A DNA stretch of 64,000 nt. Source: Polytrichum commune (Eukaryota > Streptophyta > Polytrichopsida > Polytrichales > Polytrichaceae). The notes beneath the pieces are model-generated. The model saw nothing but the letters and a program-made list of their open reading frames with translations, was not told the DNA's origin and did not search any database. Position numbers and translations under genes: made by a program. Shown in pieces: positions 2,612 to 29,575 of this stretch (positions are counted from its first letter, which is position 1; each line of letters starts with the position of its first letter). The stretch spans positions 13,828,001 to 13,892,000 of the forward strand of contig OX485803.1 of NCBI GenBank assembly GCA_950295325.1, in the 5' to 3' direction.

Positions 2612-4290
2612 CATGAGCACATGGGACGAACATTGGGCGAAGAGGAACAAAGAGTTTGAGGATTCTTTTCTAATAAGGAAAACACAAAACATTGTTATAA
2701 TCTTATGTTTTTTTGTGTGGGATGGCAACCATCACCTGATTGCTTAGAAGAATGTCATCAAAGAGTCTACAAGGACAATGAGTTCATGCATATGTCGTGA
2801 ATTCTAAGTGGAAAGCAGAAATTGTTTCACATGCCATGTTTGAGATCAACATGTCACTTCTCACTTATGTTAGTCACTCGTTATTCTTTAATTCATCTCC
2901 CATATTTGGTCAATCCGGTTTTTGTACTCACACTTTGAAATGTGTAGGTCAATTGAATTTGGGCATGTTAAATCAAAGCTGGTACATGACCTTTTCAACA
3001 TGCAAAAATATGGTCAGATGCAAATGAAGGATTTTGAAGGATTGTTGCCTCATCATCTCTATGTTCAGTCTCTTAAGTTTGAGTTGTCCACATCTAAGTG
3101 GCACAAATGAACACAGGATACACTCCTACATTACCTTCACTACGTAAGTTTCCATGTGTCACAATATATCTTTCACTTTTATAGTGTGTACTTGCATGCA
3201 AGCTTCAATTTTTCACAGTGTGTACTTTCAAATTTTGAATTTTTGGGACATTGTACAACAAGACGAGTATGCAGTTGACTAAGATTTACAAGCAAGAACA
3301 CCCAATCTTAAAGAGAAAACAACAATTGGGGTTCAAACTTTCATAATAGGGGAGTTCAACAAGGTTACAAAAAAACACAATAGCAAATTTTGTAAACTTC
3401 TTGCAATTGCTAACCATGAGTTTGGCGTTGATTTCTTGTACAAGGTTAAAAAACACTATAACATAAATTCCGATTCCTATATGAGCCATGAAAAATTACA
3501 TAAAATGGTTCTCTCACAATTGAATGCTAAACAAAAGGTAAGGTGGTTGAAATTTTGGAATTTTGGAAGAGAGAGGAAGGAAGTAGAGGGTTTCCCACTG
3601 CCAAGTATGAATAACCCAAAGTTGGAATCTTTCCTCCATAAGGCAACATATTGGTGGCATGTACAAATGTTTTACCTTTGTTACCTTCTTTATCTCTATG
3701 TGTTTGTCACTATTGGTTTTGATGCTCATGTTGCACGTGTCATTTTGATCTTTGCCTTAGATGACAAAGGCTACAAATGAGCAACTTGAATGACTATGGT
3801 AAGAATCCAAGGAGATTATAATCCCAACCCATGCAATACCTATTTGCGAATACACCTGAAAGTGGAGGATGATGGTGTGTACTTCTTGTTTCCTCAAAGA
3901 GTTCAAGCAAGTTGAGTTCATTTTTTGCAGCTTCCCATTTGAAAACAATTTGGCGAAGTGAGGGCCTTCTATAGGCTACTTGCAAGGTATTCTCTTGGCA
4001 CATGGTCCATGAAGTTGGTATTGTTTGTTATTTAGCTTGGTAGTAGGCTCACAAGCATTTCCGCATGTACTTCAAATTTGAGTTCTTGCCAAAAGGTGTT
4101 TGTAGGCCATGTTTACTCAAGACTTGGAATAAACTTGATCGACACAACATGTATCGACAACTCCATGATTGTGGGAAATCGGGGACCTCCTCACCTTGCC
4201 ATGCATGGACATGATGGTTCATCTTTGGGATACACAAACGCGACAACTTTGGGAGTAGGCTCCGTGCACAATCTGAGTCATTGGAGGGTT
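2612..4290 (+). pseudogene. decayed paralogue of the ParB/methyltransferase-like gene
   Basis: Disconnected coding stretches on the plus strand match, in the same order, exons of the gene at 12048-20487. At about 2617-2790 a W-x4-W-A-K-x-N pattern is followed by FFVWDGNH (DGNH at 2721-2732), matching WNAKND...FFVCDGNH; a stop follows directly. At 2961-3040 GHVKSKLVHDLFNMQKYG matches HVKTNIVHTLFRVQKYG and follows an acceptor AG. At about 3350-3450 KLLAIANHEF matches KLVVVTNPEL. At 3436-3660 VKKHYNINS and FLHKATYWW match IERHYTLNS and FLAKASFWA. At about 4063-4100 YFKFEFLPKG matches YFKYELLAKG. Stops and frame changes interrupt it, so it is a pseudogene. Weak traces of a later exon may occur near 5200-5390 (TEIFFSAPLFEQF compared with VDIFEALLAPLI). 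The missing 5' part would lie where the MITE at 2029-2530 now sits. Confidence 0.7.
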
Positions 4291-10395: not shown

Positions 10396-11440
10396 CTACA
10401 ATTTTTGTTACGTTAGCAAATCAACAATGAAACACCCAAAAAAAAATAACAACAAATCGAAAGTCAGACCTCTCCTGATTTAGTCATGGTTATCAAAAAG
10501 TGCTTGATTGCTGATTTCTTCTTAATTAGTTATGTAGGTCTTCCCGATTGAGTTCACTATTGAGTATGGTTTAGGCAATAAATTTGAAGATGTTGTCCAG
10601 TCTCTTTAAAGCATGTGTCTATATGCTGTTTGTTTTTTTGATCCCTGCCTAACCACATTCCAATCAAATACTAAGGATCCAATTAGGAAAAGTAATCCAA
10701 TAACATCTGCATACCTTACACCAATATTTCAAGTGTGCAATCAAATTGCTCCATGTTTATGCAATTCTTCTGCAGAATGTCATAGTTTTTCTTTTTTATT
10801 TGGAAAGTTTGGAACAAGAGGTAAAGATGGATGCTTTACTCAATGGCTTGATTGTTTGATCAAGTAAGTTCCTGGAGCTTATGAATTTGGATGCCTACCA
10901 AGCATAGGCAGATGTAAGTAGACATTATGGATCTTGTTTTGGACACAACATTATTTCCCAAATCCCACTTTGAAAACTACACTAAACATTGTATGCAGTG
11001 TTACCAAAACAGTGTCTTGCTCAATACTCATTGTAAACCGCCACATGGAGGGTTTCATCAACCCAAGCAACCAACTTACTACACTAGAGGAAATCATGTT
11101 CAAATGAACCATGTTCAACAATGTCGCTAGCCTCCATATCCACTACCATTCTAATTAAAACCATCATTTTCACTGTTGTTTCTGCATGAATGTGGGTGGT
11201 TCTAACCCCAGGAATGCTACGATGTGAGCGGTGAGCGGTGAGCGGTGAGCAGATCTCGTGAGCAGAAAATCAAAATTTGAAACTTCATTTAACGAAAGTT
11301 AGGACCCCTATGACCGTGGATTTTGCACATATTTCAAGTTTAATTTTGGAATTATGAGTCCGATATTTATGGAGTGCCTAATTTTTAGAACCAAAAGTTT
11401 CTTAAAATTACCAACGAGTCCCTATGGCCGTGGGAAAATT
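10396..11440. other. no gene recognised
   Basis: Low-complexity AT-rich DNA. A short microsatellite built on GTGAGCG lies at about 11224-11250. Nothing else is supportable. Confidence 0.4.
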
Positions 11441-11700
11441 CGGTGTGGTTGAGAAGATGGTGGACCTATGGGAAGAGGCCTCGGATCCGAGGCCTCTTAG
11501 TTGTGGGTAGCTTATGCTTGAAAATCAAAATGTCATGTATATTTGAGTTGGCTACTTGTTTTTGCATTTGGCTATTTCTTGTATGTTCTAGCATGAGGAG
11601 GAGGTTTGGAAAGAGGCCTCTGATCCGAGGCCTCTTTCTTGTGGGTAGGATATGCTTGAGAAATCAAAATGTTAGGTGTATTTGGTTTGGCTACTTGTCT
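11441..11700. repeat. tandem duplication carrying a 26-bp palindrome
   Basis: Two diverged direct copies of a unit of about 138 bp. Each contains an inverted repeat centred on GATCC. The first, 11473-11498, is a perfect 26-bp palindrome: AAGAGGCCTCGGA followed by its reverse complement. The second, 11610-11637, is 28 bp with one mismatch. Flanking words shared by both copies include TTGTGGGTAG and ATGCTTGA, followed by TTGGCTACTTG. Confidence 0.85.
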
Positions 11701-12047
11701 TTAGATTGTCTACTAGTTGACGACCACAAAAGTGTAGTGTTATTTGAGAACAACGACAAGATGCATTCAACAAGACAATTGGAATATTAAAAACCACACC
11801 ACACTTTATAAATCCAAACACTCAAACATTAACAAGTAACCAAGTGGTGTTAGAGAATATTTTGAACAATATAAAAAAAAACGAAGTCAAAAGTTAACTT
11901 AAATATGCAATTTCATATATGCAATCCCAAAAACTCCGAAAGTGATACACATACAATGAATTCCATGCGGAATGAGTGCACAAACTGAAAAACCAACGGA
12001 AGAAAAAACGGTATATTAGATAGTACACAGACATTCACATGAAGCTA

Positions 12048-15000
12048 TTACATCAGATCCGAATCACTGTGATCAGCTGATGATGAAGACATTCTAGAAT
12101 CACTAATATCTGCATCAAAGGAGGCCTGACCATCAGATTCTAAAGCTTCTATATCCAAAAACTCTAAAACTCTTCCCGGACGATATTTAGATGTAAAAGT
12201 CTGATAAGAACCTCCAGCTAGTTGATTAGCAATATCATTTGCATATGTAGGAAGTTGCCAAGACTTTGGAGGGCTGGGATAGAATGTAGGGTCACAAAAA
12301 AAAGGCCGGTGAATAGGATAGCCCAATTTATCGCATCTGCAAATGCCAATGGTACCATGTTCATAACTCAACTTTATAAGAAATGACAGTAAAAAACATA
12401 ACACACGTAAGAAAATTTGTGGACCTTACTCACTTAGTAAACCGAGATCTTTTCACAATCCTCTCTACGGGGATATCTTCACCCTCAAGATCCTCTAAAC
12501 TGGTGACACGGTCTTCAAGAGTGACTTCAGAGGCTGCTCTAGGGATAATCAATGGAGCAAGTAAGGCCTCAAAAATATCAACGTCAACCTCTAATGCCGC
12601 AATGTGACGGTGCACATTGCGGCATGCATGAATGGAAGATCCTGCAAATAAAGAAGTTGGAAAAAACTTAGTACAAAAACAACTATGAATTTTGTAGACC
12701 AAAACAATATTAACGATTAACCAACTGAAATGGAAGATTACAAAGACATACCGGTTGCTGCCGTGCAGTCTAGAATAATATCCCATGGGGAGCTACATGC
12801 TTCAATTAGCATTTGCATTAGAAGCACGGACTTTTCACGAGGCCCTCGCCATGGTGTGGATCCATTAGTTAGCTGGTCCTCACGAGAGACCAAGTTCTGG
12901 AGAATATCATCCCGTGCAACATCCACCCCATAAGGATCCAATGCAGGGACATGGCGAAATGAAAACTTCGATGGAGGTGACCCCGGCACGCTCCTGACCG
13001 CCAATGAAATACCGAACTTCATGGTCTACAATGTACGAGACATAAAGAACAACATTACTTTACAAAGTAAACAACACAACTGCGTGAGTATAATACTTAG
13101 GTGGGTCTACACTCAGAACTACCTCAAGGATTAAATTGAAACTGAATGCGGTGATCAGCAAGAAGACATAAGCTTTATCTTACAGTTGATGCTGGATTTA
13201 TTGGGGATGTGAGATGAAGGCGGTTCATTCTCCACCACTCTTTCCGAATTGCAAAACCATACGATTTGCAATATCCAAGAATATTGGACTTCGTACTCAT
13301 GCGAAAAGGGTGAAACAAAATAATTGCCCCGTCGTCGTGCAGATGTTCGTCGGCAAAGTCAAAGAGTGGTTGTAACCACTCTTTCGATTCTTGATTCCAA
13401 GCGGGAATGGACGACGGTGGGTCTGATATGCCAGGAACAGGAAGACCTTCCGGTATATCTGCAAGAATCAAGTCCAAACAGGGATGGTCCTCCGGAGAAC
13501 CCTTGTAGTGCCGGGTTTTGTCTTTTGAGTGCTGCACCCAGCTCAACCCCCAGCCACCCTTAGACTCAAATCAAATTCAGTCAAATATCAACTCCTAACC
13601 CCAAACCAGATTCCCTCAACCCACAGTCAAGCTCACAGTCATATCAACCTCACTAACATATTAGACCCCAAAAAATGTGTATCAAGGCCGAGACACCTTT
13701 TATGAGTCCTACATTTCAATTTCAGATTTTTAGAAAAATCAAAACTTGACACTTCTACCCCCTACTAGAATCCCCTCAACACTCACCCATCCTTAGACTC
13801 AAATCAAATTCAGTCACATATCAACTCATAACCCCCGAACCAGATTCCCTCAACCCATAGTCAAGCTCACAGTCTTATCAAAATCACTAACATATTAGAA
13901 CCCAAAAAATGTGTGTCAGGGCCGAGACACCTTATATGAGTCCTACATTTTAATTTCAGATTCTTAGAAAAATCAAAACTTTATACATCTACCCCCTACC
14001 AGAATCCCCTCTTCCTTCACCCACCCTTAGACTCAAATCATAATCAGTCAAATATCAACTCCTAACCCCCAAACCAGATTCCCTCAACCCACAGTCAAGC
14101 TCAAAGCCTTATCAAACTCACTAACATATTAGACCCTAAAAAATGTGTATCGGGGCCGAGACACCTTATATGAGTCCTACATTTTAATTTCAGATTTTTA
14201 GAAAAATCAAAACTTGACACTACTACCCCCTACCAGATTTCCCTCAACCCCCAGCCACCCTTAGACTCAAATCAAATTCAATCACATATCAACTCCTAAC
14301 CCCTAACCAGATTCCCTCAACCCAAAGTTAAACTCAAATTCATATCAAAATCACTAACATATTAGACCCTAAACAGAGTGTGTCGGGGCCGAGAGACCTT
14401 TTATGAGTCCTACATTTCAATTTCAGATTCTTAGAAAAATCAAAACTTTATACATCTACCCCCTACCAGAATCCCCTCTTCCCTCACCCACCCTTAGACT
14501 AAAATCATAATCAGTCAAATATCAACTCCTAACCCCCAAACCAGATTCCCTCAACCCACAGTCAAGCTCACAGTCTTATCAAACTCACTAACATATTAGA
14601 CCCTAAAAAATGTGTATCGGGGCCGAGACGCCTTATATGAGTCCTACATTTCAATTTCAGATTTTTAGAAAAATCAAAACTTGACACTACTACCCCCTAC
14701 CAGATTTCCCTCAACCCCCAGCCACCCTTAGACTCAAATCAAATTCAGTCACATATCAACTCCTAACCCCTAACCAGATTCCCTCAACCCACAGTCAAGC
14801 TCAAATTCATATCAAAATCACTAACATATTAGACCCTAAACAGAGTGTGTCAGGGCCGAGACACCTTTTATGAGTCCTACATTTCATTTTCAGATTCTTA
14901 GAAAAATCAAAACTTGACACTACTACCCCCTACCAGATTTCCCTCAACCCCCAGCCACCCTTAGACTCAAATCAAATTCAGTCACATATCAACTCCTAAC

Positions 15001-18000
15001 CCCTAACCAGATTCCCTCAACCCACAGTCAAGCTCAAATTCATATCAAAATCACTAACATATTAGACCCTAAACAGAGTGTGTCAGGGCCGAGACACCTT
15101 TTATGAGTCCTACATTTCATTTTCAGATTCTTAGAAAAATCAAAACTTGACACTTCTACCCCCTACCAGATTTCCCTCAACCCCCAGCCACCCTTAGAGT
15201 CAAATCAAATTCAGTCACATATCAACTCCTAACCCCCGAACTAGATTCCCTCAACCCACAGTCAAGCTCACAGTCATATCAACCTCACTAACATATTAGA
15301 CCCCAAAAAGAGTGTGTTGGGGCCGGGACACCTTATATAAGTCCTACATTTCAATTTCAGATTTTTAGAAAAATCAAAACTTGACACTTCTACTACCTAC
15401 CAGAATCCCCTCAACACTCACCCATCCTTAGACTCAAATCACATTCAGTCACATATCAACTCATAACCCCCTAACCAGATTCCCTCAACCCACAATCAAG
15501 CTCAAATTCATATCAAAATCACTAACATATTAGACCCTAAACAGAGTGTGTCAGGGCCGAGACACCTTTTATGAGTCCTACATTTCAATTTCAGATTTTT
15601 AGAAAAATCAAAACTTGACACTTCTACCCCCTACCAGATTTCCCTCAACCCCCAGCCACCCTTAGAGTCAAATCAAATTCAGTCACATATCAACTCCTAA
15701 CCCCCGAACTAGATTCCCTCAACCCATAGTCAAGCTCACAGTCATAGCAACTGACTAACATATTAGACCCCAAAAAGAGTGTGTCGGGGCCGGGACACCT
15801 TATATGAGTCCTACATTTCAATTTCAGATTTTTAGAAAAATCAAAACTTGACACTTCTACCCCCTACCAGAATCCCCTCTTCCCTCACCCACCCTTAGAC
15901 TCAAATCATAATCAGTCAAATATCAACTCCTAACCCCCAAACCAGATTCCCTCAACCCACAGTCAAGCTCACAGTCTTATCAAAATCACGAACATATTAG
16001 ACCCCAAAAAATGTTTGTCAGGGCCGAGACACCTCTTATGACTCCTACATTTCAATTCAGATTTTGAGAAAAATCAAAACTTGATATATCTACCCCCTAC
16101 CAGATTTCCCTCAAGCCCCAGCCACCCTTAGACTCAAATCAAATTCAGTCACATATCAACTCCTAACCCCCGAACTAGATTCCCTCAACCCACAGTCAAG
16201 CTCACAGTCATTACACATTTTTGTACCCTCATGTAGTTTTGCTATTCTACATATGAATCACAGGTACTCTATCGATGTTTCGGTTCCGATTGCTGAGATA
16301 TGAAAGGCAATAACTACTTAATGATAAATGTCGACCATACTGAAGTGCATAAATGTGAAGCCCAACCTGTGATGACATCATTATGGAAGGGCAGTACCTT
16401 AAGCATGAATCTTTTCAACTCGTTATAGGAAGGGGTGAAATCACCCGTGTCACCGCCAAGAATGTCCTCCATTGAGGAGTTGAGAATGAGCTCTTCAAGT
16501 TGGATCTCAAGCTCCTCCCCCGGTGTCAAAATAGGAATTTGACTCAACTGCTCGTAGGAGGAATCGCGTTTTGTTCCTCTAGAAAATGTTGGAGCATGAG
16601 AGCCAGATTCATATGTTGGACTAGGAGCAACGGGACTCTTACCTTCTGGCTCTGGAGGGGGGTTCATTTTCCTTTTGCCCTTCTTGGTGGACTTCTCTAG
16701 TGACTTCTGTAGCTTCTCCCGCTCTTTTTTATCAGCTCTCTCCTCAGCCTCTTTGACCCTCAGCGCTTTCTTTCGGTCCTCTTCGATGCGTCGTTTCATT
16801 GCCTTTGCCCTCTCATTCTCATCTTCAATGGCCTGTATGTCCAACATTTCAATTCCAGAATCACCTACATCCTCCCTTGACTTTCTGAGCTCAGTCTCAA
16901 AAGCAGGCGTAAAACTTGCAGCGCAATCAAGATACCAGGCACCGCCGGCAAGGTGAGAAGTTGTCCACGTGCGTTGTTGATGAGCTGAGAACATGCATGC
17001 TGAATTTGATCTATCAAGCCATGCGGTCAAGAATACAGGAAGGTCTTCTTTGGAAATAGCGCCTTTCGCCAAAAGCTCGTACTTAAAGTACCTGGGTTAC
17101 GACATAGCACATAACATTAAATTCTTGAATTCCTCAAATAGCAAGTCACATAATATCAACTGAAACAATTACTGAAATTAATGAGAATTACTTCAAGATT
17201 TGAGACGTACCTAAAAAGAACTTTGCGGACAACTAGGTCAAATCCGTCAAATCCAACAAAATCGTCACCTTTCTTGAAGGAATCGTGTCCTCTGAAATAT
17301 GTGTTGAACGCATGGTCCCATAACTTCATGCGACAGTCTTCGATATACGCGGGCAACAACATTGGCTCACTGGCAAGACTCATGTTGATTGGAAGTCGGT
17401 CTTGACGCATGGTCTCGTCAAAAACAATACTGGCCTGCTCAGAAATCTAGTAACCAAGACAATAAGCATCAGCTGCACTAATTGCATAAGCAAGACAACA
17501 AATGCACGATTGCGTCAATGAAATTAAGAATGTGAGGTAGATAAAAGAAATGCCAACGAGGAATTCAAATAATTGAAAATTCATGAAATCAGTGGACTTA
17601 CTCCTGCCCAGAAACTTGCTTTAGCTAGGAAATTTGCCAATCTCTCTTCGTTGATGGGCTTGGGAGGTAGCCTGCGGGCCTCGCGAGTGGAAGCAGATGA
17701 ATTAAAGTATTCTAGCCATTTTATTTTGAATGCGGGAGACGCCTTAGAAGTTGCAATGAGCTGGAGCTTCTCTAAGTTGAGTTCCGGTGAGAGTGAGTTT
17801 AGGGTGTAATGTCGCTCGATCTGTGTGACAGAGGGTATGTGAGTTGGTGAGTCCTCTTCTCAAGGATAAGCTGAACAAATTGATATGGACAAAGAGGTAG
17901 GGGACCTACCTCACGAAGCCAACCGTCGGTAAGCTCCGGGTTAGTCACAACAACAAGTTTTCCCATCTTGATGCGAAGTGCCACAGCTTTCTTCTCAATT

Positions 18001-20487
18001 GCGGCATTCATTGCAGCCGCCTTGTCAACAGGGGAGACTTCTCCTTCTGTTTGCTCCACAAGCTGACGTACACCATCGTCCGCAGCGAGACCCAGTTCGT
18101 GCTGCACAAAGAAAGAACAAGAATGCATAAACCAAAATATCATAAGAAAATGAAAACAAGAGTTGAAGATTCACGAAATTAGCCGGTTGCGATTAATAGA
18201 AAATAATTATTCATGACTTCAAAAAATGTGAAATCAAACTAACAAATCACCTTAAATGTGAAGTTTGTAAACACATTTAATGGCAACGAATACCAAGTCT
18301 TTTTTTGTGACTTCTTGCATCTTTTGAAATCTGCCGGACTCAAAAGGTCACTGAACTGATCAATTGACATTAGACCATACTTCTGAACCCTGAACAGGGT
18401 ATGGACAATGTTGGTCTTCACGTGCGAATCCTCGGTATGTCTAAAATCAAAATCAAGTGAAAAATATTATATTATTGAAATGAAATGAAATGAATATGAT
18501 AGAATGCATATGAAAAGAAAATGCACTTACTTGTTAATGTTGTGCATGACTTGCATAACAAGTCCAACTCTCCCATTTGTGTCAAGGAGAATCGAGTCCA
18601 CCAAATAATGCCAAGACTCCTCAGTTCGGTGAAGTCTGTCAATGTGATTTAACCATGCTTGACGCCTATGGTTTCCGTCACACACAAAAAAATCATATTT
18701 GTTAAGTGTGCCAAATTTGGATCTGATAGGAGGAACGTGTTGAAAACGTCGTTTTTGGCGTTCCAAATAGGACCCCAAGAAGCTTTATCAGCTTCAAACA
18801 CTTCATGTGTCTTATCGTCTTCATTGGTGGTTGTGACATAAAACACCGAAGCGCCCTCCCTATATCCGTGAACAAACTCTTGCTCGAGCTTAGCAAGATC
18901 GGATGATAGAGTTGGCCTTACCATTGGCATTACAAACATTCTGCACAAAGGAATACAAAATCGCGAGGAACTAACGGGTTGCAATCTCAAGCTTGTGATC
19001 GTCGACACTGAGTTAAGTTTCTGCCGAGTCCGAATCTCATCCTCATCAACCATAAATTGAGCATCATCCCTAAGAATATCTTCCTCTCCCTCAAGCCCGT
19101 CCTCAAGGATTTCCAACTCTGGCTGTATTCTTTCTGATACTTGTGTAGAAGGTGGCGAAGATGCAGCATGTACCTACAATTTTGAAATTTTATTTTCAAG
19201 AAAGTAAAAATCACTTCCTCGGCGAAACACATAAACGCTTTTAGCTGATCCACATATTCACCTCGATCAATTGAAAATCAACAATAGCAACTAACCACCT
19301 ACCAGATTTCCCTCAACCCCCAGCAACCCTTGGATTCAAATCAAATTCAGTCACATATCAAGTCATAACCCCCGAACCAGATTCCCTCAACCCCAAGTCA
19401 ACCTCATATTCATATCAAACTCACTAACATATTAGACCCCCAAAAATGTGTATCGGGGCCGAGACACCTTTTATGACTCCCACATTTCAATTTCAGATTT
19501 TTAGAAAATTCAAAATTTGACACTTCTACCCCCTACCAGAATCCCCTCCTCCCTCACCCACCCTTAGCATCACATCAAATTCAATCACATATCAAGTCCT
19601 AACCCCCAAACCAGATTCCCTCAACCCCAAGTCAACCTCATAGTCTTATCAAACTCACTAACATATTAGACCCCCAAAAATGTGTATCGGGGCCGAGACA
19701 CCTTTTATGACTCCCACATTTCAATTTCAGATTTTTAGAAAATTCAAAATTTGACACTTCTACCCCCTACCAGAATCCCCTCCTCCCTCACCCACCCTTA
19801 GCATTACATCAAATTCAATCACATATCAAGTCCTAACCCCCGAACCAGATTCCCTCAACCCCAAGTCAACCTCATAGTCTTATCAAACTCACTAACATAT
19901 TAGACCCCTCTCCCACCCTGAGCCTCACATCAAATTGAGTCACATATCAAGTCCTAACCCCCGAACCAGATTCCCTCAACCCCAAGTCAACCTCATAGTC
20001 CGCCATCCCTAAAGCCGTTCTCCCGCACCCTCAAGCTCAACCCTCAACCCTCCTCCTCACCTCCTCACCCTCAACCCTCCCCCTCACCCTCACATTCGCC
20101 GAGTATAGGTTCCAGAATATAGGTTCCGAGTATAGGTTCCATAATATTTCAATTCACACCAAAAATTTACATTCAATTATTTATGGGTGGGACAACCTAC
20201 CTCTTCCCCAAAGTGTTGCTCTTCATTGTCCATGCTGGCTTCTCGAAGATCACCCACATCAGCGCTGCGATCAAATTCTCCTAGGCTCTGTCAAGTGTAT
20301 ATATCCTTTGCTCATTAGCTATGAAGTTGGCCTGGGATAGCGTTAGCTTTGCAAAGAAACCTAACCCTACACCAATGGCCCTAAAAGTCACCAATTGAGT
20401 CCAATCTTTACAAACCTACTCCTCTCTCTCATCTGATGTGGAGGCACTTGAGGCTGCCCCAGGTTGAAGCTGTGTCTGCGTAAGTCG
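12048..20487 (-). CDS. ParB-like plus DNA methyltransferase-like multi-exon gene (5' incomplete)
   Basis: Exons reconstructed on the minus strand, in order of transcription: 20487-20420, 20285-20201, 19173-18531, 18440-18251, 18101-17910, 17820-17602, 17446-17211, 17091-16398, 13531-13184, 13025-12752, 12641-12434, 12336-12048 (TAA). Every intron is GT...AG and every junction keeps phase, giving about 1150 codons. Exon 3 contains FFVCDGNHRRQAW, matching the DG-x-HR motif of ParB/sulfiredoxin-like domains. Exon 8 encodes a Lys/Glu-rich, probably coiled-coil segment. Exons 9-11 follow beta-class amino-methyltransferase order: motif IV-like DLILADIPEG, a GAIILFHP strand, then motif I-like IILDCTAATGSS and motif II-like ALEVDVDIF. 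The canonical DPPY is DIPE here. Exon 12 is Ser/Asp-rich. One base is missing in an A7 run at 18686-18692, shifting frame just before FFVCDG. The first listed exon is 110 bases from the LTR element, and earlier exons are not seen. The function, perhaps DNA or RNA modification or binding, is inferred only from motifs. Confidence 0.72.
13560..16215. repeat. 233/234-bp satellite array, block A (intronic)
   Basis: About eleven head-to-tail copies of a G-poor, C/A-rich unit. The marker GCCG(A/G)G begins at 13687, 13921, 14155, 14388, 14622, 14855, 15088, 15322, 15556, 15789 and 16023, a spacing of 233 or 234 throughout. Copies differ by substitutions and mostly lack indels. The array lies wholly inside the 2.87-kb intron between exons 8 and 9 of the minus-strand gene at 12048-20487. 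No unique spacers occur between copies. Confidence 0.95.
19291..20000. repeat. 233/234-bp satellite array, block B (intronic)
   Basis: Three or so copies of the same unit as at 13560-16215 (GCCGAG at 19458 and 19692, 234 apart), then a shortened copy. It lies inside the intron between exons 2 and 3 of the same gene. It is followed at about 20000-20090 by a degenerate stretch of CCCTCAACCCTCC-type words. Confidence 0.9.
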
Positions 20488-20597
20488 CTGTTCCAGATGC
20501 CCAACCCAAACCCAATTCACAATCCCACACCAAAGATAAAATACGATATAAAGGAGCCGATGGAAGTTAATGTTTGTCAACTATTCTAATTACCGTG

Positions 20598-22426
20598 TGT
20601 GAGCCCAAAAGGGTGCCCACATTTAGTCTTAGACCCTTGAAACGTTAGTTGATGCACTTTGAAGTAGCATGTTACTTCACAAAAATATAAAAAGAGTGAA
20701 ATGTTAGTCTTAGAAGTACCATGTTGTAAGAGGCTAGGATGTGAGTTGTTATTGTGTTTTTACCTTCGGAAGGATTTGAGTGAATGAGGATAGGTAAGGA
20801 GAACTTAGATTGAGTAGTTAGTGAGTAGGCTAGTACAAATGGATGGAGACAACCAAAGTGACTCAAGAGGCAAGTGCATTCGAATTGGGATGAATGGAGG
20901 ATCACATGGAGCGCACAAGTGGACCACCTCATCATGGCCACTTAATGGGGAAGGCCCAAGGAAGAATGCAAGGTGGAGGATAAGCAAATTCTCAAAGCAC
21001 CAATCAAATCACGAGCTAAGCATCGTGGTTTGAATTAAGTGGTGAGCGACGATTTGGGAAAGTAAGGGGAGAAAGTTATGGCGGCGGAAAGCGAAGGAGG
21101 CTAAGTTTGGGTTGAAGCATCCCAAGTTTGGTAAAGTGTGGTAGGTAGAAAGCCAAGGCTAGTTAAATGTTCGAATTAGGATCCTTGTTGATCATTTGAG
21201 GGAGGAAGACTTAGAAGATAGGATTGGCGCCTACTAAGTAGGAGGAAATCTCAAGGGCTTATCGTGAGCCTTGAGGGTGCTCACCCCCTCAAGCTTACTA
21301 TATAATCCCTCATTCTTCCCTCACTCACTCTCTCTTTCCTTTGTGCTCCAAGGCACCCCACGAGTTATAAGTGTGGGTGTGGGAAGCCATATTGGAGCAC
21401 ATGTGTGTGCTTAGTTTTTAGTTTGAGAGCCAAGGCTTGTTAGCCTTGAAGAGGGCTTGACCTCTTGGTAGAATTAGTGTTGACGTGAAGGATTTTAAAG
21501 TTAATTCATGATTCCAATTTGTGGTACTTAAAGTTCATGTTTTGAATACACGTGGTTGCAAGTTCCATGTTTAAGAGTTGAGCACTTGATGTCGTGATGA
21601 GTGCAAAAATATACTTGTGTGGATTAGTTAGTCTTAGTGAAGTTAGGAAATTCTCTCTCCCCCTCTCCTCTCTAGGATTTTAGGATTTTAGGATTAGAGA
21701 AGAATTGTGTGATTAGAAAGGGGTTGTTAGTAGAATTAGGGAAATTAGGTAGGAAGATTAGTTAAGGGCTTGAATAATTAGTGAGGTAGTTGGGGATTAC
21801 AACTACAAAGTTGTGGGTTCATGAAGGAGCTGGGTTTATGAAGGAGCTGGGTTTGTTTAGTTAGAAAGTAAAGAGCTGGGTTTATGAAGGACCTGGGTTT
21901 GTTTAGTTAGAAGCTAAGGAGCTGGGTTCATGAAGGACCTGGGTTTATGAAGGACCTGGGTTTGTTTAGTTAGAAGCTAAGAAGCTGGGTTTATGAAGGA
22001 GCTGGGTTTATGAAGGAGCTAGGTTTATGTAATTAGAAAGTAAAGAGATGGGTTCATGAAGGAGCTTAGTAGATAGCCTACCTAATTAGCTCATAGACAA
22101 GTAGTTAGTTACATTATGCTAGTTAGTGTTATGTGTGGCTTTCACAAGTAAATGTATTTGAGATTGACTATAGAGAATAGTGTTTTTTTAACACTTACAT
22201 CCTCTCTTTAAAAATAAACCACGTGCACAACTTAATGGAGAATGTGGAGCACTCTCGCGATGGCAAGACAAAGGAAGCAAAGACCAAAGTTAAATCCAAG
22301 ACCACTTGAAGGGTGAACCTTGCACTATGGACTCATCCAAGTCCAAATCCAATACCGCGGAGGAATGTGAGCCCAAACCCACTACTCGGACTACGGACGC
22401 TTAAGGGTGGGGGGTTTGGCCTCACA
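20598..22426 (+). repeat. 5' LTR
   Basis: 1829 bp, from TGTGAGCCCA to GGCCTCACA. It holds a TATA box at 21299-21305 and, at about 21815-22065, imperfect tandem copies of a short unit (GAGCTGGGTTTATGAAG and variants). Compared with the 3' LTR it lacks a 335-bp segment at the junction near 22289. Confidence 0.97.
21299..21305 (+). promoter_or_regulatory. LTR TATA box
   Basis: TATATAA followed by a pyrimidine-rich stretch with CTCACTCACTC words about 20-40 bases downstream, a plausible transcription start for the element's genomic RNA. The same motif lies at 30338-30344 in the 3' LTR. Confidence 0.6.
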
Positions 22427-22430
22427 TAAT

Positions 22431-22448
22431 TGGTGCGTCCGCCGGGAG
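22431..22448 (+). other. probable primer-binding site
   Basis: Four bases after the 5' LTR the sequence TGGTGCGTCCGCCGGGAG starts with TGG, the complement of a tRNA CCA tail, and has the GC-rich character of such sites. It partly resembles the complement of a plant tRNA-Asp 3' end, but I cannot assign the tRNA with certainty. The leader continues without a convincing ORF to the gag start at 23336. Confidence 0.55.
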
Positions 22449-23335
22449 CGAAGCGGAAGGTAGTTACAAGACTTGGAGGCGACTAGGAGACTTGGAGGCA
22501 ACTAGGAAAAATTGGAGACACAAACTTGAGAGAAGGGAAGGAGCACCCGAAACTCGGTAAGTATTCTCTCTTTGGGTTACATTTGAATTCATTGTATTTC
22601 AACTATTCTTTGGAATGAATTGCATTGTCAATTACGCAAATTCATTTTTGAGGAAGGAGCGCGGCGAAGGTACGTCCTCAACCTTTTTGGGGATTTGCTA
22701 AGAACTTAAAAGGAACCTATAACCGAGTAGCTCATTAAAACATTAGAGGGTAAATTCACCTTAGGACATTGAACTTTGACACTCACCTCGGGGTGAGTCT
22801 CAAAGTTTTGGGAGTTGTCATTTCATGCTCTAGATTAAATTAATATTTCACAAAATTTATGGTGTTGTTACATTGAGTCACGATTGAGGGGAGTGCTAAC
22901 TCACAGGGGGATGCGATTGCTCAAGGTATGTTTATTTCTTCAAAGTGAACTCATTAACTAATTAAGGAATGCCTTTTGTACTCGTGATTGTTGTTATCCG
23001 TTGTAGAGGGTAATTCCCGAATTGGGGATGGTGTGAGAAGTTGAAGGGTGAAGCCTCGACTTTTAACATAATCTACTCGGAAGGTCACCCCCTCACAATC
23101 GGTATTGTGGTGAGTGTTAATTTGCGGGAAGGTGCGGAGGTGATGCTCCGACTTAACCAAAAAATTAACATGAACATGCCTATCCCCTATTGGGATTCTT
23201 TCACCTAAGTGGGCTTGCAGGTTCTTTTCCTCACCTCCTAAAAAAATTATAACCACACCAAGACAAGTGAAAATATTAAGAGGGGAATTGCTAGGATTAT
23301 GTGTGGTCAAGTGAGGGTCGATCGATTCTTATGGA

Positions 23336-26300
23336 ATGCAAGGTAGGACTCGCTCACAAAAACCAAGTTTGATAGTAGGACTAGAGAAATCTACTCGAAA
23401 GAGGCGGTCCTCTAAAATCAGTGATAGATTAGAACAAGATAATGTTAGAATAGAGAGTTGTTTGAACGTCGAACCTAGGACTAGGTCAATTCTAGACACC
23501 TTAGAACTTGGAGCTCAACTTGAAGAGGAGATCACTCCCTCCAAATTGAGTGGTGAAACTTCTTCGGAAAATTACACACTTAGAGAAGAATTCCCGGTAG
23601 AAGTTGATAGGGGATTGTTGAATAGTTCACCGGTCACCATGGCCGAGGAACGGGGGATGGATCCACCACCCATACCCCCAATTCCGCCCATACCTCCTAT
23701 ACCTCCAATAGACCCATTGGTTAGGCCAAGAGGCCTACCAATTGTGGTTCCACAAAATTTAGCGGCGATGGATATGCCATCTCATCTCCCTAAATTTTAT
23801 GGGACCAAGGATGAGATACCCTCTCGGCACATGGAACGGTATATCGAACGGTTGGCTAGCTTCCTCATAACCGACCCGGGTTATTGGTTAGTGTGGTTTC
23901 CTACCACTCTAGAGGGGGAAGCCTATGAATGGTATCGGGATCATGCCGAGGGACATTTTAGGGGATGGGAACAATTACAAAGGGAGTTTCTTAACGAATT
24001 TAGGCCGGAAGTGGGTCAAAGTACCGCATTAAGGGCATTGTCGTCATTGAAGCAAGGAAGGGAGGAAGAAATTTCGGCTTATATTAGGAGGTTTGATTTA
24101 GTGTGCACTAGATTTGTGGGTACCATGCTCAACGACGACACGCTAAAGCAATTTTTCATTCAAGGGTTTTTTAAGTCCGGAACTATTAGGGGTGTTCTAG
24201 AAAGGAATCCCTTGACATTGGCGGATGCCAAGCGTGCGGCTAGAGATATTGAAAACTTGGATAAAGATCACGAAAGGCTATGGAGAAGGGAGGATGAATT
24301 GATCCCACAATTCATCCCCATACGCCCTAGGGTGGTAGCGGTAGAACCCGCTAAGTATGAGAACCAAATTCCATATGCCATTGTGGACACCGGTCCCCGA
24401 CCTTTAGCGGTTAGGGAACCGGCACCTCTTTTGGCACTACCGGCCCCTAGAACGGATCCACACTTGGAGGAGGTTGAGAGAAGACTAGGTGCTAGCCAAC
24501 TAGGATTCCAAGAGGCTATGATAAAACAAATGCAAAGCCTCACGGATCAAATGTCATTAATGATCCGGAGTCAACAACCGGGGCCTCCACCCCCGGTTGA
24601 GTCGGGTAGGCATTCTTCCGGATTATGGTGTGTCCAATGTGGCCAACCGGGCCACACGCGTCAATTTTGTAGAAGTGGACAAAACCGTGACCAAAGAGGA
24701 AACGGTAACCCACCTCAACAAAATCAACGAGGTCAAGCGCCACCTCACTATGGAAATGGAAGCAATAGAGGACCACAACCTAGAGGGCAAGGTGGCCAAA
24801 ATTTAGAGAAGAAGGAATTTCATCCCTTTTGTGGAAGGTGGCACGCTCAAGGACAATGTTGGTCCGAAGGTCAAGAGTTTAATTGTAGCAATTGTGGAGG
24901 AAGTCATCCCTCGGATACGTGTCGCCAACCGGACAAAATAATTAATGTCCCTTACCCGGTGGCTAATCCACAACAACAAGCAAGGGATAATATGCGAGGT
25001 GCTAGGCCACAAGGAGTACCGGCCAATGAACTTAGGCCACCTAACTTATACTATGACCATAGTAATGCTAGGCAAACTTTTCATCCACCGGCGGGCTTGC
25101 AAACTACAACCGGTTACATTCCAATACAAAATAGACAAGGAGTTCCACCTAATGGTAGTAACGGGAGACAAGCGCCTCCAACGGATCCGGGACCATCTAA
25201 CTCCCAAGATGTTAGGTTCATGGATGGAGTGTTGGAGGCCACATGTGATGACATGCTTCCTCTCCCAACGAGAATTGGAGAGGAGCAAAGTCAATGGCCT
25301 CCTCACACCAATGCTATTACATATGAGTTAGTGAAGGGTAAGGGTGTGGTTGAAGAAGCACCTGCACTAGCGGTAACTACTAGGGCTAGGAGAGGGGATG
25401 CCCCGTTGGAGGTAGGAATAGGAGAGCAAGGAAATTACTCTTCGGATGAAGAGATTAATCTCTCCGAGTTGCATAGGGTAGCTAGAAGAGCTACTAAGGA
25501 TGTGGAGAGGGAAAATATAATTTTACAAGATAGGGAGAGGACTAATGCGGTACATGACTTGGATAATAGCGATGTGGGTGAATGGGAAGGACCGGGGGTT
25601 CCCGTAGACGAATTCGACGTAGTGGGTAATTCTAAGGTGGAAAGATCTACCGGGTACGACTTGTGGGCGGACCTTAGTACACTCAAGGCGGATATTACTT
25701 TCGGCCAACTATTGGAAATTTCACCCACGGCAAGGAAAACATTAAAGGAGGGAATGCCGGTACACAAGAGGATGAGGAAGGTGAAAGCTAAAATAGCCGC
25801 TAGGATCCAATCACAAGGTGGAAGAGACGTGAAAGCTATAGAAATAGAAGTTGTTATAGTAGATAAGGTGGTTCCTAATGTGCTAGTCGACGGAGGGAGT
25901 AGTCTAAATATACTACCGGAGGATACTATGAAAAAATTGGGACTTGGACTCACGGGGCCTTCACCTTTGGTCATAAATATGGCAAATCAAAGTTCGACTA
26001 CGCCTTTGGGGATGATCAAGGATTGTAGAATGACTACGGGAGGTGAGGAGTACTTGGTCACCTTCCATGTCATTAAAATGCACTCCAACAAGGACACCTT
26101 CCCCATTTTGCTAGGTAGGCCTTGGTTGCGGATGGCGAATGCTATGGTCAATTGGGGTGGACCTAAACCATCCATCACTTATGGTCCGGAGGGTAATAGG
26201 GTCATAGTGTCCATTGGTTCATTAGAAGGATGGATGAAGAAGGAGATGTATTTGCCATTGGAGAAGGAAATTGATGACTTAAACGAGAATGAAATTGGCA

Positions 26301-26797
26301 AGGCATTGGTGGGAGTCGTCCATCCCGAAGGTCAAAGGGTTGTTATAGATTCGGGCTCGGGAAGTCTAGGTCCTAATTTTTACAATTATGGGGATAATGG
26401 GGATTATGCCCAATGGCTAAGGGAGTACCCCGAGTCCGAGGTTGATGTAATGGTTACATTTCACCAAGTAGGCTTAGGGAGTGAATTTCCTAGTGTTAGT
26501 TTAGGAGAGGGCTCATTGTTGGAGCCATGTGAGGTGCTCACCGAGGAAGAGTGGGTTAGCGGTGGGTTAACACCTTGGGTAGATGACGTGGAAGAGGGTG
26601 AGGTTAGTTTAATTCATGTAGATGGGACTCAAGAGGAGGATGTGATTATTGAGTCATCGAAATTGGAGGAGCCTTTACATTTCAAAACCACGTCTACGGG
26701 GATAGTTGTAGGTCAAGATGTGAAAGATTACCCCAATGTGCCTTCCGATTGGTATCGGAACAAAGAGGAACAAGCACATGTGTCGGAAGCGGATTGA
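23336..26797 (+). CDS. gag-pro: Gag-protease polyprotein of the Ty3-type element
   Basis: 1153 codons, ending in TGA. After a Lys/Arg-rich start and a Pro/Ile repeat at about residues 110-125, a retrotransposon Gag capsid domain occupies about 150-290 (EGEAYEWYRDHAEG, then FIQGFF). A CCHC zinc knuckle, CVQCGQPGHTRQFC, lies near residue 432, with a second Cys/His cluster (CSNCGGSHPSDTC) beyond it. An aspartic protease active site, VLVDGGSSLNIL, lies near 850; DGG in place of DTG occurs in several plant Ty3 lineages. Gag builds the particle and the protease matures it. The frame is intact throughout. It stays in register with pol beyond the single stop, which argues for recoding and against two independent genes. 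Confidence 0.95.
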   Translation: MQGRTRSQKPSLIVGLEKSTRKRRSSKISDRLEQDNVRIESCLNVEPRTRSILDTLELGAQLEEEITPSKLSGETSSENYTLREEFPVEVDRGLLNSSPVTMAEERGMDPPPIPPIPPIPPIPPIDPLVRPRGLPIVVPQNLAAMDMPSHLPKFYGTKDEIPSRHMERYIERLASFLITDPGYWLVWFPTTLEGEAYEWYRDHAEGHFRGWEQLQREFLNEFRPEVGQSTALRALSSLKQGREEEISAYIRRFDLVCTRFVGTMLNDDTLKQFFIQGFFKSGTIRGVLERNPLTLADAKRAARDIENLDKDHERLWRREDELIPQFIPIRPRVVAVEPAKYENQIPYAIVDTGPRPLAVREPAPLLALPAPRTDPHLEEVERRLGASQLGFQEAMIKQMQSLTDQMSLMIRSQQPGPPPPVESGRHSSGLWCVQCGQPGHTRQFCRSGQNRDQRGNGNPPQQNQRGQAPPHYGNGSNRGPQPRGQGGQNLEKKEFHPFCGRWHAQGQCWSEGQEFNCSNCGGSHPSDTCRQPDKIINVPYPVANPQQQARDNMRGARPQGVPANELRPPNLYYDHSNARQTFHPPAGLQTTTGYIPIQNRQGVPPNGSNGRQAPPTDPGPSNSQDVRFMDGVLEATCDDMLPLPTRIGEEQSQWPPHTNAITYELVKGKGVVEEAPALAVTTRARRGDAPLEVGIGEQGNYSSDEEINLSELHRVARRATKDVERENIILQDRERTNAVHDLDNSDVGEWEGPGVPVDEFDVVGNSKVERSTGYDLWADLSTLKADITFGQLLEISPTARKTLKEGMPVHKRMRKVKAKIAARIQSQGGRDVKAIEIEVVIVDKVVPNVLVDGGSSLNILPEDTMKKLGLGLTGPSPLVINMANQSSTTPLGMIKDCRMTTGGEEYLVTFHVIKMHSNKDTFPILLGRPWLRMANAMVNWGGPKPSITYGPEGNRVIVSIGSLEGWMKKEMYLPLEKEIDDLNENEIGKALVGVVHPEGQRVVIDSGSGSLGPNFYNYGDNGDYAQWLREYPESEVDVMVTFHQVGLGSEFPSVSLGEGSLLEPCEVLTEEEWVSGGLTPWVDDVEEGEVSLIHVDGTQEEDVIIESSKLEEPLHFKTTSTGIVVGQDVKDYPNVPSDWYRNKEEQAHVSEAD

Positions 26798-26800
26798 CGG
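26795..26800 (+). promoter_or_regulatory. in-frame UGA-CGG: candidate translational readthrough site
   Basis: The stop TGA at 26795-26797 is followed by CGG. The pol frame continues in the same register with no further stop until 29573-29575 and has no ATG near its start. UGA followed by CGG or CUA is the known leaky-stop context of several plant RNA viruses such as tobraviruses. Readthrough here would give a Gag-Pol fusion. This is inference from context; no downstream RNA structure was computed. Confidence 0.6.
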
Positions 26801-29575
26801 TACGTGGATGTGAAATTAAAGAATGGAAAAACCCGACAAATGAAGATGGGCTCCAAATTGGGGGAGAAAGAGGTTAGGGAGTATAGCAATTTGGTGGATG
26901 AGTTTAGTGATACTTTTGCATGGTCCTACGATGAGCTTAAGGGAATTCCTAGGGAAATGGTAGAGCACCGGATTCCTTTAATTCCGGGGGCGAGGCCAAT
27001 TAGACAAAAGGAGAGGAGGATGAATCCTCAATTGCAATTGTTGGTGAAAGCGGAATTGGAAAGGTTATTGAAGGCCGGGTTTATCAAGCCGGTGGAAATC
27101 ACGGATTGGGTTTCTCCTATGGTCTTAGTAAAGAAAAAAAATGGGAAATTAAGGGTTTGTGTCGACTATAGGAAATTGAATTCGTGCACACAAAAGGATC
27201 ACTTCCCCTTACCTTTTATCACCTTGTTGCTTGAGGAGGTTGGAGGTCATTCGCGATATACCTTTATGGATGGGTATGCGGGTTATAATCAAATTTCCAT
27301 AGCCCTCCAAGATATCCATAAAACGGCTTTTACTACACCTTGGGGTACTTTTGTGTGGGTAGTGATGCCATTTGGGTTATGTAATGCCCCGGCTACTTTC
27401 CAACGATTAGTAATGTATATCTTCACCGACTTGTTGTTCAAATCCATGACCGTCTTTGTGGACGATTTTAGCACACAAAGTAATGTGGATGATCACCTAC
27501 ATTGTGTTAGGGAGGCATTGGTTAGGTGTAGGAAGATGAGGTTAGCATTGAACCCGGATAAGACATTTTTGGGAGTGAATAAGGGAGTGTTGTTGGGTTA
27601 TGTTGTTAGTGAGAAAGGTAGAGAACCCGATCCGGATAAGATTGCGGCCATAAACGACTTGGCAACTCCAACCAATTCCAAGGGGATCTCTAAGTTGTTA
27701 GGACATGTGGGATGGTACCGGGAACTTATTCCTAATTTTTCAAAGATAGCGGTGCCCATTACCCATTTGCTCAAAAAGGATGTCAAATTCGAGTGGACGG
27801 ATGCTTGTCAAAAAGCCTTTGAGGAATTGCGGGATAGGTTGAGCACCTATCCGGTGTTGATACCACCCAATTGGGGTAAACCTTTTCACGTCTATTGTGA
27901 TGCTAGTAATGTGGCAATAGGGAGTGCGCTTTGTCAAGCAACGGGAGAAAAAGAGAAGGATCAACCTATAGCTTATGCGAGTAAGCAATTGACCCCCGCC
28001 GAAAGAAACTACTCTACAACGGAGAGGGAGTGCCTAGCCATGGTGTTTTCCGTTAAAAAGTTTAGGCATTACCTCATGTGCAACCCGGTTGTATTTTTTG
28101 TTGACCACATGGCTATCAAGTATCTAATTAACAAGGCGGAGTTAAGTGGTAGGTTAGCTAGGTGGGTTTTGTTATTAGAAGAATTCGACTACACGGTGGA
28201 ATATAAACCGGGTCGTATGCATTTACAAGCGGACCACTTGTCTAGGTTGTCGGAGGAGATAGGACAAAATCCGGTAAATGATATGTTAGTAGATGATAGC
28301 CTCTTTGTGGTCACTTCTACACCGGAGTGGTATGCGGGCATAGTGGAATTTCTAACAACCCACAAGTTGCCCAAAGAGTGGACAAAAGAAGAGAGAAGGA
28401 AGGTGAGGGTAAATAGTAGGCAATTTGTTGTAGTGGGCCATAGGTTGTTTAGAAGGGGGTCCGATGGTATTTTACGACGATGCGTGTCAAAAACGGAAGT
28501 TGAAGCGATTTTAATCGCTTGCCACGATAGCGCTTGCGGCGGTCACTTCTCGGGTCAACTCACCGGGCAAAAAATACTTAGAGCGGGCTACTTTTGGCCT
28601 ACACTATTTAAGGACGCCCATGACTATGTAAGGAAATGCGACGCTTGCCAACGGTATGCCCGAGACGACCTTAGAATGGAGATGCCTTTACATGTATCAT
28701 TACCCTTAATTCCTTTCGAAAAATGGGGCATCGACTATGTGGGTGAGGTCCATCCCCAATCTTCAAAAGGAATGAAATATATTGTGGTGGCAACCGAGTA
28801 CCTCACCAAGTGGGCGGAAGCCAAAGCGGTGAAGACCGACACGGCGGAACACGCGGCAACATTTATGTACGAAAACATAATTTCGCGGTTCGGGGTGCCG
28901 AAGATCCTAGTAAGCGATAGGGGTACTCACTTTTTGAATGACTTGATTCGAGAGATGACAGAGAAATTTAAAATTGATCACCGGAAGACTACTCCCTACC
29001 ACCCACAAACCAATGGACAAACGGAAAGGGTTAACGGAATTTTGGTGAGTATACTACGCAAGACGGTTATAGACTCGAAGCGGGATTGGGATACGAAACT
29101 AACGGCGGCACTTTGGGCATACCGTACAACCTATAAGGTAACTACGCGTGCTACACCATTTTCCTTAGTCTATGGTCTTGAAGCGACACTACCAATCGAA
29201 TATGAAGTCGAGTCACTTAGGGTGGCCGTGAGTACGAGACTTACCGAAAGTCAATCCTTACGAAATCGACTAACCGATTTGGAAGCACTTGACGAAGGGA
29301 GGAGAATGGCGGCTCAACATATTGAGGCAACCCAAAGAAGGAGAAAGATTACTTTCGACAAACGACATAAGAGAAGGGCCCTAACACCGGGAATGATGGT
29401 CATGATTCAAGACGCACGAAAGCTTGAATTTCCGGCGAAATTCAATGCGGTATGGTTAGGACCTTACCTTGTCTATGAGGTCTTTCCTAATAATTCAATT
29501 CAATTGGAAACGTTGAATGGTGAGCTCTTTCCTACCCGTACATCGGGAAGTAGATGTAAGGAGTACCGAGCTTGA
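26798..29575 (+). CDS. pol: Pol polyprotein: reverse transcriptase, RNase H, integrase
   Basis: Open from the codon after the UGA, about 925 codons. Residues below are counted from GTG 26804. The reverse transcriptase has VLVKKKNGKLRVCVDYRKLN near 105-125, MPFGLCNAPATFQR near 187, and the catalytic box FVDD at about 218-221 (usually YVDD). RNase H has FHVYCDAS near 360. Integrase has an HHCC zinc site near 573-615 (ending CDACQ) and a catalytic D-D-E triad at about D643, D704 and E740, the last two 36 apart as in D,D(35)E. A GPY-type segment (WLGPYLVYEVF) lies near the C-terminus, and no chromodomain follows. There is no ATG in the first 20 codons, so expression needs readthrough or cleavage of a fusion. 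All catalytic motifs look intact. Confidence 0.95.
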   Translation, partial: RYVDVKLKNGKTRQMKMGSKLGEKEVREYSNLVDEFSDTFAWSYDELKGIPREMVEHRIPLIPGARPIRQKERRMNPQLQLLVKAELERLLKAGFIKPVEITDWVSPMVLVKKKNGKLRVCVDYRKLNSCTQKDHFPLPFITLLLEEVGGHSRYTFMDGYAGYNQISIALQDIHKTAFTTPWGTFVWVVMPFGLCNAPATFQRLVMYIFTDLLFKSMTVFVDDFSTQSNVDDHLHCVREALVRCRKMRLALNPDKTFLGVNKGVLLGYVVSEKGREPDPDKIAAINDLATPTNSKGISKLLGHVGWYRELIPNFSKIAVPITHLLKKDVKFEWTDACQKAFEELRDRLSTYPVLIPPNWGKPFHVYCDASNVAIGSALCQATGEKEKDQPIAYASKQLTPAERNYSTTERECLAMVFSVKKFRHYLMCNPVVFFVDHMAIKYLINKAELSGRLARWVLLLEEFDYTVEYKPGRMHLQADHLSRLSEEIGQNPVNDMLVDDSLFVVTSTPEWYAGIVEFLTTHKLPKEWTKEERRKVRVNSRQFVVVGHRLFRRGSDGILRRCVSKTEVEAILIACHDSACGGHFSGQLTGQKILRAGYFWPTLFKDAHDYVRKCDACQRYARDDLRMEMPLHVSLPLIPFEKWGIDYVGEVHPQSSKGMKYIVVATEYLTKWAEAKAVKTDTAEHAATFMYENIISRFGVPKILVSDRGTHFLNDLIREMTEKFKIDHRKTTPYHPQTNGQTERVNGILVSILRKTVIDSKRDWDTKLTAALWAYRTTYKVTTRATPFSLVYGLEATLPIEYEVESLRVAVSTRLTESQSLRNRLTDLEALDEGRRMAAQHIEATQRRRKITFDKRHKRRALTPGMMVMIQDARKLEFPAKFNAVWLGPYLVYEVFPNNSIQLETLNGELFPTRTSGSRCKEYRA

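Follow-up and report, generated by a model that had tools for sequence, protein, structure and literature searches.

What is a spliced moss gene that combines a ParB-like motif with a domain resembling beta-class DNA methyltransferases, and what does it do? The gene in question lies on the minus strand, within positions 12048..20487 of a stretch of 64,000 nucleotides from Polytrichum commune (GenBank assembly GCA_950295325.1, contig OX485803.1, positions 13,828,001 to 13,892,000 of the forward strand), which was analysed as a whole and is called the window below. An earlier note on this DNA had offered two possibilities, a domesticated modification gene or cargo of an uncharacterised transposon. 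The second one held in a modified form, the gene being the element's own second gene. Our favoured reading, to which we assign a probability of roughly 0.55, is that it is the accessory (second) gene of a large Mutator-like transposon and that its protein is a self-DNA-binding anti-silencing or transposition co-factor built on a pseudo-methyltransferase.

A genome search with exon 8 of the gene yielded 150 scored places in the 408-Mb genome, including that of the window itself (1124 candidates at first look). The copies fell into three groups: the first matched along the entire query at 95-100%, the second along most of it at 91-98%, and the third at 70-77%. Twenty of the 150 places were fetched and examined in detail. 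Eleven of them have a 3' terminus ending in GCTCACATCGTAGCATTCCTG in common and continue into unrelated flanks, with single substitutions in the termini of copies L013 and L019. The matches of L009 and L014 end before this terminus, and the seven copies of the other two groups showed no match there. In the window the 3' end of the element is located 0.8 kb beyond the stop codon of the gene, and the element exceeds the interval 12048..20487:

11209..20597, minus strand: 5'-truncated transposon copy lacking the transposase part (3' end shared with other copies, which continue past 20597)
11209..11229, minus strand: 3' terminus of the element, GCTCACATCGTAGCATTCCTG, identified by copy comparison; pairs as an inverted repeat with the distant 5' end

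At its other side the window copy breaks off at 20597, where it abuts the long terminal repeat (LTR) of a gypsy retrotransposon. Seven other copies share sequence past this point, for 1.2-1.5 kb in the stretches read, and three were read for 10 kb. Position 20597 was therefore dropped as an end of the element; position 20204, suggested by L014 alone, was also dropped because L014 has an insertion there. L038 and L039 show the distant 5' end, CAACGACGCTAC, whose region scored at 40 places out of 79 candidates. Of the 21 terminal bases of this 5' end, 15 agree with the inverted 3' end, giving imperfect inverted termini with a shared GTGAGCGGTGAGC. Perfect 10-bp target-site duplications were present in six of the seven copies tried, in which both ends were read (ATGCAAAGCC, CCGACACTGT, GCGGTGGGAC, GTCCCGCTTG, GGGTGCGTGT and TTGTTGTGGT); for the seventh pair (L038/L040) no 3' end was found within the stretch fetched. 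The element has thus been mobile. The six complete copies measure 13.5, 17.8, 20.0, 21.0, 28.9 and 30.3 kb, and the one with duplication ATGCAAAGCC adjoins sequence 79.5% identical to the open reading frame of the window's gypsy element. Helitron, LTR and long interspersed nuclear element (LINE) origins were discarded on the basis of the 10-bp duplications and the inverted termini.

In all three 5' regions fetched, a transposase-like gene is encoded on the strand opposite to the accessory gene. By eye, its N-terminus is a candidate for zinc binding, and DDE-like motifs and a SWIM-like sequence were also read (FMADSA, CHVYDS, NLSETVHN and, as the SWIM-like one, CTC..CKH); the reading of the last in L038 passes through a stop, which may mark the edge of an intron. 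DDE transposases of the type found in Mutator-like elements often carry a SWIM zinc finger, and most members of this superfamily, though not all, possess terminal inverted repeats. The length of the duplications falls within the range of 8-11 bp given for Mutator-like elements, several of which carry extra genes, in excerpts of PMC6446971. On account of the duplication length, the termini and the motifs read by eye, assignment to the Mutator-like DNA transposons is well supported, if not proven by a profile hit. The window itself contained no transposase match at E<=1e-4.

Other traces of the family were also seen. The L038 element is nested inside the transposase gene of a diverged relative (5' flank 1827-3722; 39% identity, 12 stops), smaller transposase-like pieces occur in L016, L019 and L020, and another 5' end of the same family is located 3.7 kb beyond the right edge of the window in opposite orientation (G000:C1:13895707-13896319).

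The gene in the window copy spans 12048..20233 and was modelled with 11 exons encoding a product of 957 residues:

20201..20233, minus strand: exon 1 (MDNEEQHFGEE) with start codon (gene model)
18531..19173, minus strand: exon 2, which encodes the ParB-like part including FVCDGNHRRQAW and is frame-broken near 18686-18700 (gene model and copies)
18251..18440, minus strand: exon 3 (gene model and copies)
17910..18101, minus strand: exon 4 (gene model and copies)
17602..17820, minus strand: exon 5 (gene model and copies)
17211..17446, minus strand: exon 6 (gene model and copies)
16398..17091, minus strand: exon 7, a charged stretch which, judged by eye, may be a coiled coil (gene model and copies)
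13184..13531, minus strand: exon 8, methyltransferase-like, with LILADIPEGLP at the position of motif IV followed by the strand GAIILF (gene model, copies and profile alignment)
12752..13025, minus strand: exon 9, GPREKSVLLMQMLI (motif X-like) and the start of motif I, LDCTAAT (gene model, copies and profile match)
12434..12641, minus strand: exon 10, remainder of motif I, GSSIHACRNVHRHIAALE (gene model, copies and profile match)
12048..12336, minus strand: exon 11, C-terminal tail and stop codon (gene model)

Phase is kept across all exon junctions, and the single exception lies inside exon 2. There the open frame shifts in a run of T near 18686-18700 (the run itself at about 18686-18692), leaving the peptide ...LAHLTNMIF and FVCDGNHRRQAW in different frames. 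Since both halves of the exon are in one frame in all ten other copies where both were found, the frame break of the window copy is a matter of a single base, through mutation or sequencing error, rather than an intron. The earlier note had described a spliced minus-strand gene of twelve exons without phase conflict; the spliced gene was recovered, whereas the twelfth exon presumably arose from an extra splice across the frame break. With its 5' truncation, its missing transposase and its broken frame, the window copy is dead. Among the fetched copies, donors read GT at 136 of 137 sites and acceptors AG at 140 of 145, counted wherever the match reached the exon edge. All 11 query pieces were present within the stretch fetched in eight of the 20 copies. 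The ATG and the first donor are kept in 7/7 other copies read, which were the best hits of a query that held both.

A plant origin of the gene, without contamination, is supported by its canonical introns, by a RuBisCO small-subunit gene in the window and by relatives in the moss Ceratodon purpureus, in agreement with what had been noted before. The Ceratodon proteins are the closest named relatives (61% over 66-75% of the query). Relatives were found by domain-profile searches of proteins; the first protein search, with a peptide from after the frame break and words from the first 500 residues, returned nothing, and viral contigs scanned with two short peptide patterns per scan contained no relatives. 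In the open-licence library searched, no report was found on ParB/methylase genes in moss or in eukaryotic transposons, on Mutator-like elements of Polytrichum and related mosses, or on transposable elements in a Polytrichum genome assembly.

Exons 8-10 form the METHYLTRANSFERASE-like part. It matched PF01555 with 27.2 bits (cut-off 26.7; E 4.6e-6), while the whole 957-residue product scored 23.4 bits and thus below the cut-off. In the PDB it matched DpnA (E 1e-5 with the single sequence, 2.8e-7 by profile) and, over nearly the whole domain, CcrM (E 0.0022 by profile). A tblastn search in phages gave 297 records at E<=1, the best of the eight listed being the DNA methylase of Enterococcus phage 9184 (E 3e-6; query 18-232). 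Comparison by hhalign with three phage DNA methylases, whose rows were drawn from these same tblastn matches, gave 97.6% over 196 columns with distant relatives included, and 96.9% over motifs X-I only without them. At the level of sequence these matches show descent of the C-terminal part from bacterial-type beta-class amino-methyltransferases, and the methyltransferase-like motifs stand in the beta-class order that had been claimed for them.

The canonical catalytic letters are lost. A profile alignment pairs DLILADIPEGL with VDMVLTDPPYG; a plain multiple alignment instead places SDPPSS opposite TDPPYN, a register in which the copies read [DN]PP[ST]. In both registers the aromatic residue of the catalytic [DNS]PP[YFW] is absent. 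D[IL]PEG is present in 19/20 copies, L021 being the one that departs. Eight relatives hold the stretch: five read D[IL]PE[GN], P0011 reads DMPEG, P0018 reads DQPEG, and P0017 departs; these relatives reach down to about 40% identity. In place of the FxGxG involved in binding of S-adenosylmethionine (SAM), DCTAAT is found in 14/20 copies, other letters that are not FxGxG in five, and one copy is cut short. Motif I has retained its acidic end (ALEAD), and motif X its K/S. A predicted model of this part had a predicted local distance difference test score (pLDDT) of 39 and was not used. The most economical reading of these data is a methyltransferase-derived domain whose chemistry was changed or lost and whose role was kept. 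The description as beta-class methyltransferase-like is hence borne out as to descent (PF01555 and the DpnA profile match), while a modification gene is unproven because the catalytic motif is not canonical.

The motif DGNHRRQ, reported early in the product, is present in exon 2 as FVCDGNHRRQAW. Of 560 relatives found, 120 were listed and 40 of these selected, and across the 40 FFVCDGNHRRQAW is nearly invariant: D and N are invariant, and G, H, R and R nearly so. None of the 120 listed relatives bears an organism or function name, and many are called 'hypothetical protein'. A low-confidence model (pLDDT 57) places a strand (162-165) and a helix (171-182) around this motif of GxRR/DGNHR type. 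In PHROGs, 17 of 40 members weakly matched phrog_1033, 'ParB-like partition protein' (best E 0.082), the next family being matched by two; in five of ten members scanned again the match falls at the motif region. Comparison by hhalign with ParB controls gave 83%, a circular result and no evidence, since the motif itself, as VIDGNHR, had served to pick the controls. These controls derived from 82 stretches matching VIDGNHR, 80 of them listed, with 81 open frames, of which 16 + 12 were aligned; the control alignments matched each other at 96.4%, and a negative control gave 0.1%. Eight of the 28 aligned controls were scanned, and five matched Pfam ParB_N at E<=0.021. No relatives of the ParB-like part were found in prokaryote genome contigs by two short peptide patterns, nor in phages by tblastn. 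The ParB assignment is thus one at motif level only.

Selection was assessed by Nei-Gojobori ratios of non-synonymous to synonymous change (dN/dS) in ten pairs, several values being undefined or rough because synonymous sites were saturated. In distant pairs, dN/dS of the ParB-like part was 0.05 (L014/L028) and 0.06 (L013/L028), that of the middle part 0.07 (L014/L023), that of the methyltransferase-like part 0.09-0.14, that of exon 7 0.09-0.23 and that of exon 11 0.25-0.48. Closer pairs ranged from 0.18 to 0.83, with one value of 1.67 on very few changes. Between distant subfamilies the gene is under strong purifying selection, with about 0.05-0.23 in its main parts. L023 and L028 are close in the front part (dS 0.17-0.19) and far apart in the methyltransferase-like part (dS 1.5), and the reverse applies to L014 and L023. 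Copies have therefore swapped front and back modules, the probable site being the large intron, filled with repeats, that separates exons 7 and 8. L014, L023 and L028 are mosaic copies with front and back gene halves from different subfamilies.

The intron between exons 7 and 8 and the first intron contain tandem repeats of one family, and two palindromes lie close to the 3' end of the element:

13542..16211, no strand: 234-bp tandem repeats, 11.4 copies, in the intron between exons 7 and 8 (repeat scan)
19294..19908, no strand: 2.6 copies of the same 234-bp repeat family, part of intron 1 (repeat scan)
11473..11498, no strand: 26-bp perfect palindrome AAGAGGCCTCGGATCCGAGGCCTCTT, candidate cis-site (sequence)
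11611..11636, no strand: second copy of the palindrome with one mismatch, 138 bp from the first (sequence)

The 234-bp arrays differ from copy to copy. In the window, distances of about 260 and 400 bp separate the two palindromes from the 3' end of the element; one or two are present in 12/20 fetched copies, and the stretch holding both has a single-stranded folding z of -6.75.

Taken together, the element is best pictured as a cut-and-paste transposon in which the accessory gene reads away from a putative DDE/SWIM-type transposase gene. The accessory protein combines three parts, which are ParB/Srx-like at the N-terminus, specific to the family in the middle, and methyltransferase-derived at the C-terminus. 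It may bind the element's own DNA, with the 234-bp intron repeats and the 26-bp subterminal palindromes as candidate sites, and, like VANC in VANDAL elements, may be a co-factor that counteracts silencing or assists transposition. The methyltransferase-derived domain would then provide a scaffold for binding DNA and SAM and would not work as an ordinary N4/N6 methyltransferase. This mechanism was preferred mainly by analogy of layout: according to excerpts of PMC5735166, VANC21 of the Arabidopsis element VANDAL21 binds motifs within tandem repeats, also inside the introns of VANC21 and VANB21, and the intron repeats of the moss element parallel these.

Several observations weigh against this reading. 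Likeness to VANC is one of layout only. The transposase had no meaningful match in Pfam or among solved structures (PDB), which also bears on the Mutator-like assignment; of the three transposase genes only that of L038 has matched stretches that are complete and free of stops, while the match of L037 ends after residue 653 and that of L039 is interrupted by stops and contains a piece out of place. In the accessory gene, stops occur in the matched pieces of 5/20 fetched copies. The palindromes are not family-wide sites: L009, L022-L025 and L028 lack them, and those of L026 and L027 are degenerate. Finally, the label 'ParB-like' is backed by the DGNHRR motif and the weak PHROGs signal and was not confirmed otherwise: 40 members gave no ParB match in Pfam, no ParB was found among sequence matches to solved structures (PDB), and the low-confidence model of this part had no significant fold match.

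As one alternative, the protein might be a DNA amino-methyltransferase that is still active although its catalytic loop is altered; its ParB-like part would find the element's sites, and its C-terminal domain would write N4-methylcytosine or N6-methyladenine there to mark or protect the element. The hhalign and tblastn matches to phage DNA methylases, the kept ALEAD and K/S, and the conservation of D.PE[GN] in 19/20 copies (as D[IL]PEG) and 7/8 relatives, which argues for function, speak for this, as does the use of N4-methylcytosine by bdelloid rotifers mentioned in excerpts of PMC8885841; with the aromatic residue absent in both registers and FxGxG, which reads TAATG in 14/20 copies, restored in none, we nevertheless consider it rather unlikely. 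A bolder proposal, held only tentatively, is that a prokaryote-type pair of ParB and amino-methyltransferase was turned into a self-targeting epigenetic device, in which the ParB-like part would address repeats or palindromes and the conserved D[IL]PE[GN] domain would perform an undescribed SAM-dependent reaction or read methylated DNA. If true, such a device would let giant Mutator-like elements proliferate in mosses. The protein could also be essential transposition machinery, its ParB-like part serving for example in synapsis or target choice, and no epigenetic factor at all. This is compatible with a divergent second gene under strong purifying selection and with mudrB of MuDR, apparently required for integration according to excerpts of PMC6446971, but the tandem repeats in the introns suit an epigenetic target equally well or better, and we regard it as a possible, minority explanation.

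Much less probable is passive cargo, a gene captured from the host or from bacteria that does nothing for the element. Mutator-like elements do tend to pick up host gene fragments (excerpts of PMC6446971). The idea is disfavoured by the selection result across distant subfamilies, and it further conflicts with the 15/20 fetched copies without a stop in the pieces found, with the kept splice sites, and with the failure to find relatives of the ParB-like part in the viral contigs, phages and prokaryote genomes searched. The probability of a domesticated plant host gene is close to nil. This was a proposal of the earlier note, and the plant introns speak for it; given 150 scored places, target-site duplications and a truncated, frame-broken copy that is one of many, it is refuted for the window copy, and a single-copy, syntenic and expressed orthologue could exist elsewhere.

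The remainder of the window contains further mobile sequences and a second trace of the gene family:

2952..3663, plus strand: degenerate relic of a related gene (3385-3663: 30% identity, E 5e-10; 2952-3047: 50% identity, E 3e-4)

A paralogue in the same window had been claimed before; a related gene is indeed present, but as this degenerate relic, whose outlying pieces, out to 2607 and 4148, are weak matches only. Positions 20598-31801 are occupied by the Ty3/gypsy LTR retrotransposon, with LTRs at about 20598-22426 and 29637-31801 that are 99.7% identical over 1693 bp. Its 5-bp flanks are unlike (CCGTG vs CATAC), which suggests inter-element recombination rather than simple insertion. Two open frames of non-LTR type lie in opposite orientation, one with an RVT_1 reverse transcriptase domain (33553-35361, plus strand) and one with an endonuclease domain (39802-41676, minus strand). 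At 63097-63870 on the minus strand, DUF4216 scored 28.8 bits, just under the cut-off of 30.6; we take this domain to be of the kind present in CACTA-type transposon proteins.

Transposons carrying epigenetic genes (VANC, TET/JBP, SET) are among the few direct views of elements fighting silencing. A bacterial-type methyltransferase lineage maintained by selection in giant moss transposons, its catalytic motif consistently altered, would be a new tool against silencing and would represent a fate new to this enzyme family. PF01555 matches in moss proteomes, such as Ceratodon KC19_5G032000, may likewise be transposon genes rather than evidence of a host machinery for N4-methylcytosine or N6-methyladenine.

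Among the known systems, MuDR is much smaller than the moss element, and we know of no ParB- or methyltransferase-like domain in mudrB. Both have a two-gene layout (mudrA/mudrB in MuDR) in which little is known of what the second gene does, as far as described in excerpts of PMC6446971. VANDAL/Hiun of Arabidopsis (vanB and vanC) resembles the moss element in its Mutator-like duplication size, in extra genes beside a SWIM-type transposase (excerpts of PMC6446971 and PMC5735166) and in tandem repeats, variable between copies, in the introns of accessory genes (excerpts of PMC5735166). The comparison is one of layout, not of sequence, and the moss element differs in its putative ParB-like and methyltransferase-derived accessory protein, its 10-bp duplications and its imperfect inverted termini. 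Fungal DNA transposons carrying TET/JBP and HarbingerS/MuDR elements carrying SET, described in excerpts of PMC12730594, are likewise DNA transposons with a gene related to epigenetic enzymes; their enzyme families are different ones, the moss element carrying the amino-methyltransferase lineage with a changed catalytic motif. With DpnA, CcrM and the DNA methylase of Enterococcus phage 9184, the moss domain shares the motif order IV-X-I, the neighbourhoods of motifs X and I, and the domain length. It differs from these phage and bacterial enzymes in having D[IL]PE[GN] for DPPY and mostly TAATG for FxGxG, and in being fused to a long eukaryotic protein encoded by a transposon.

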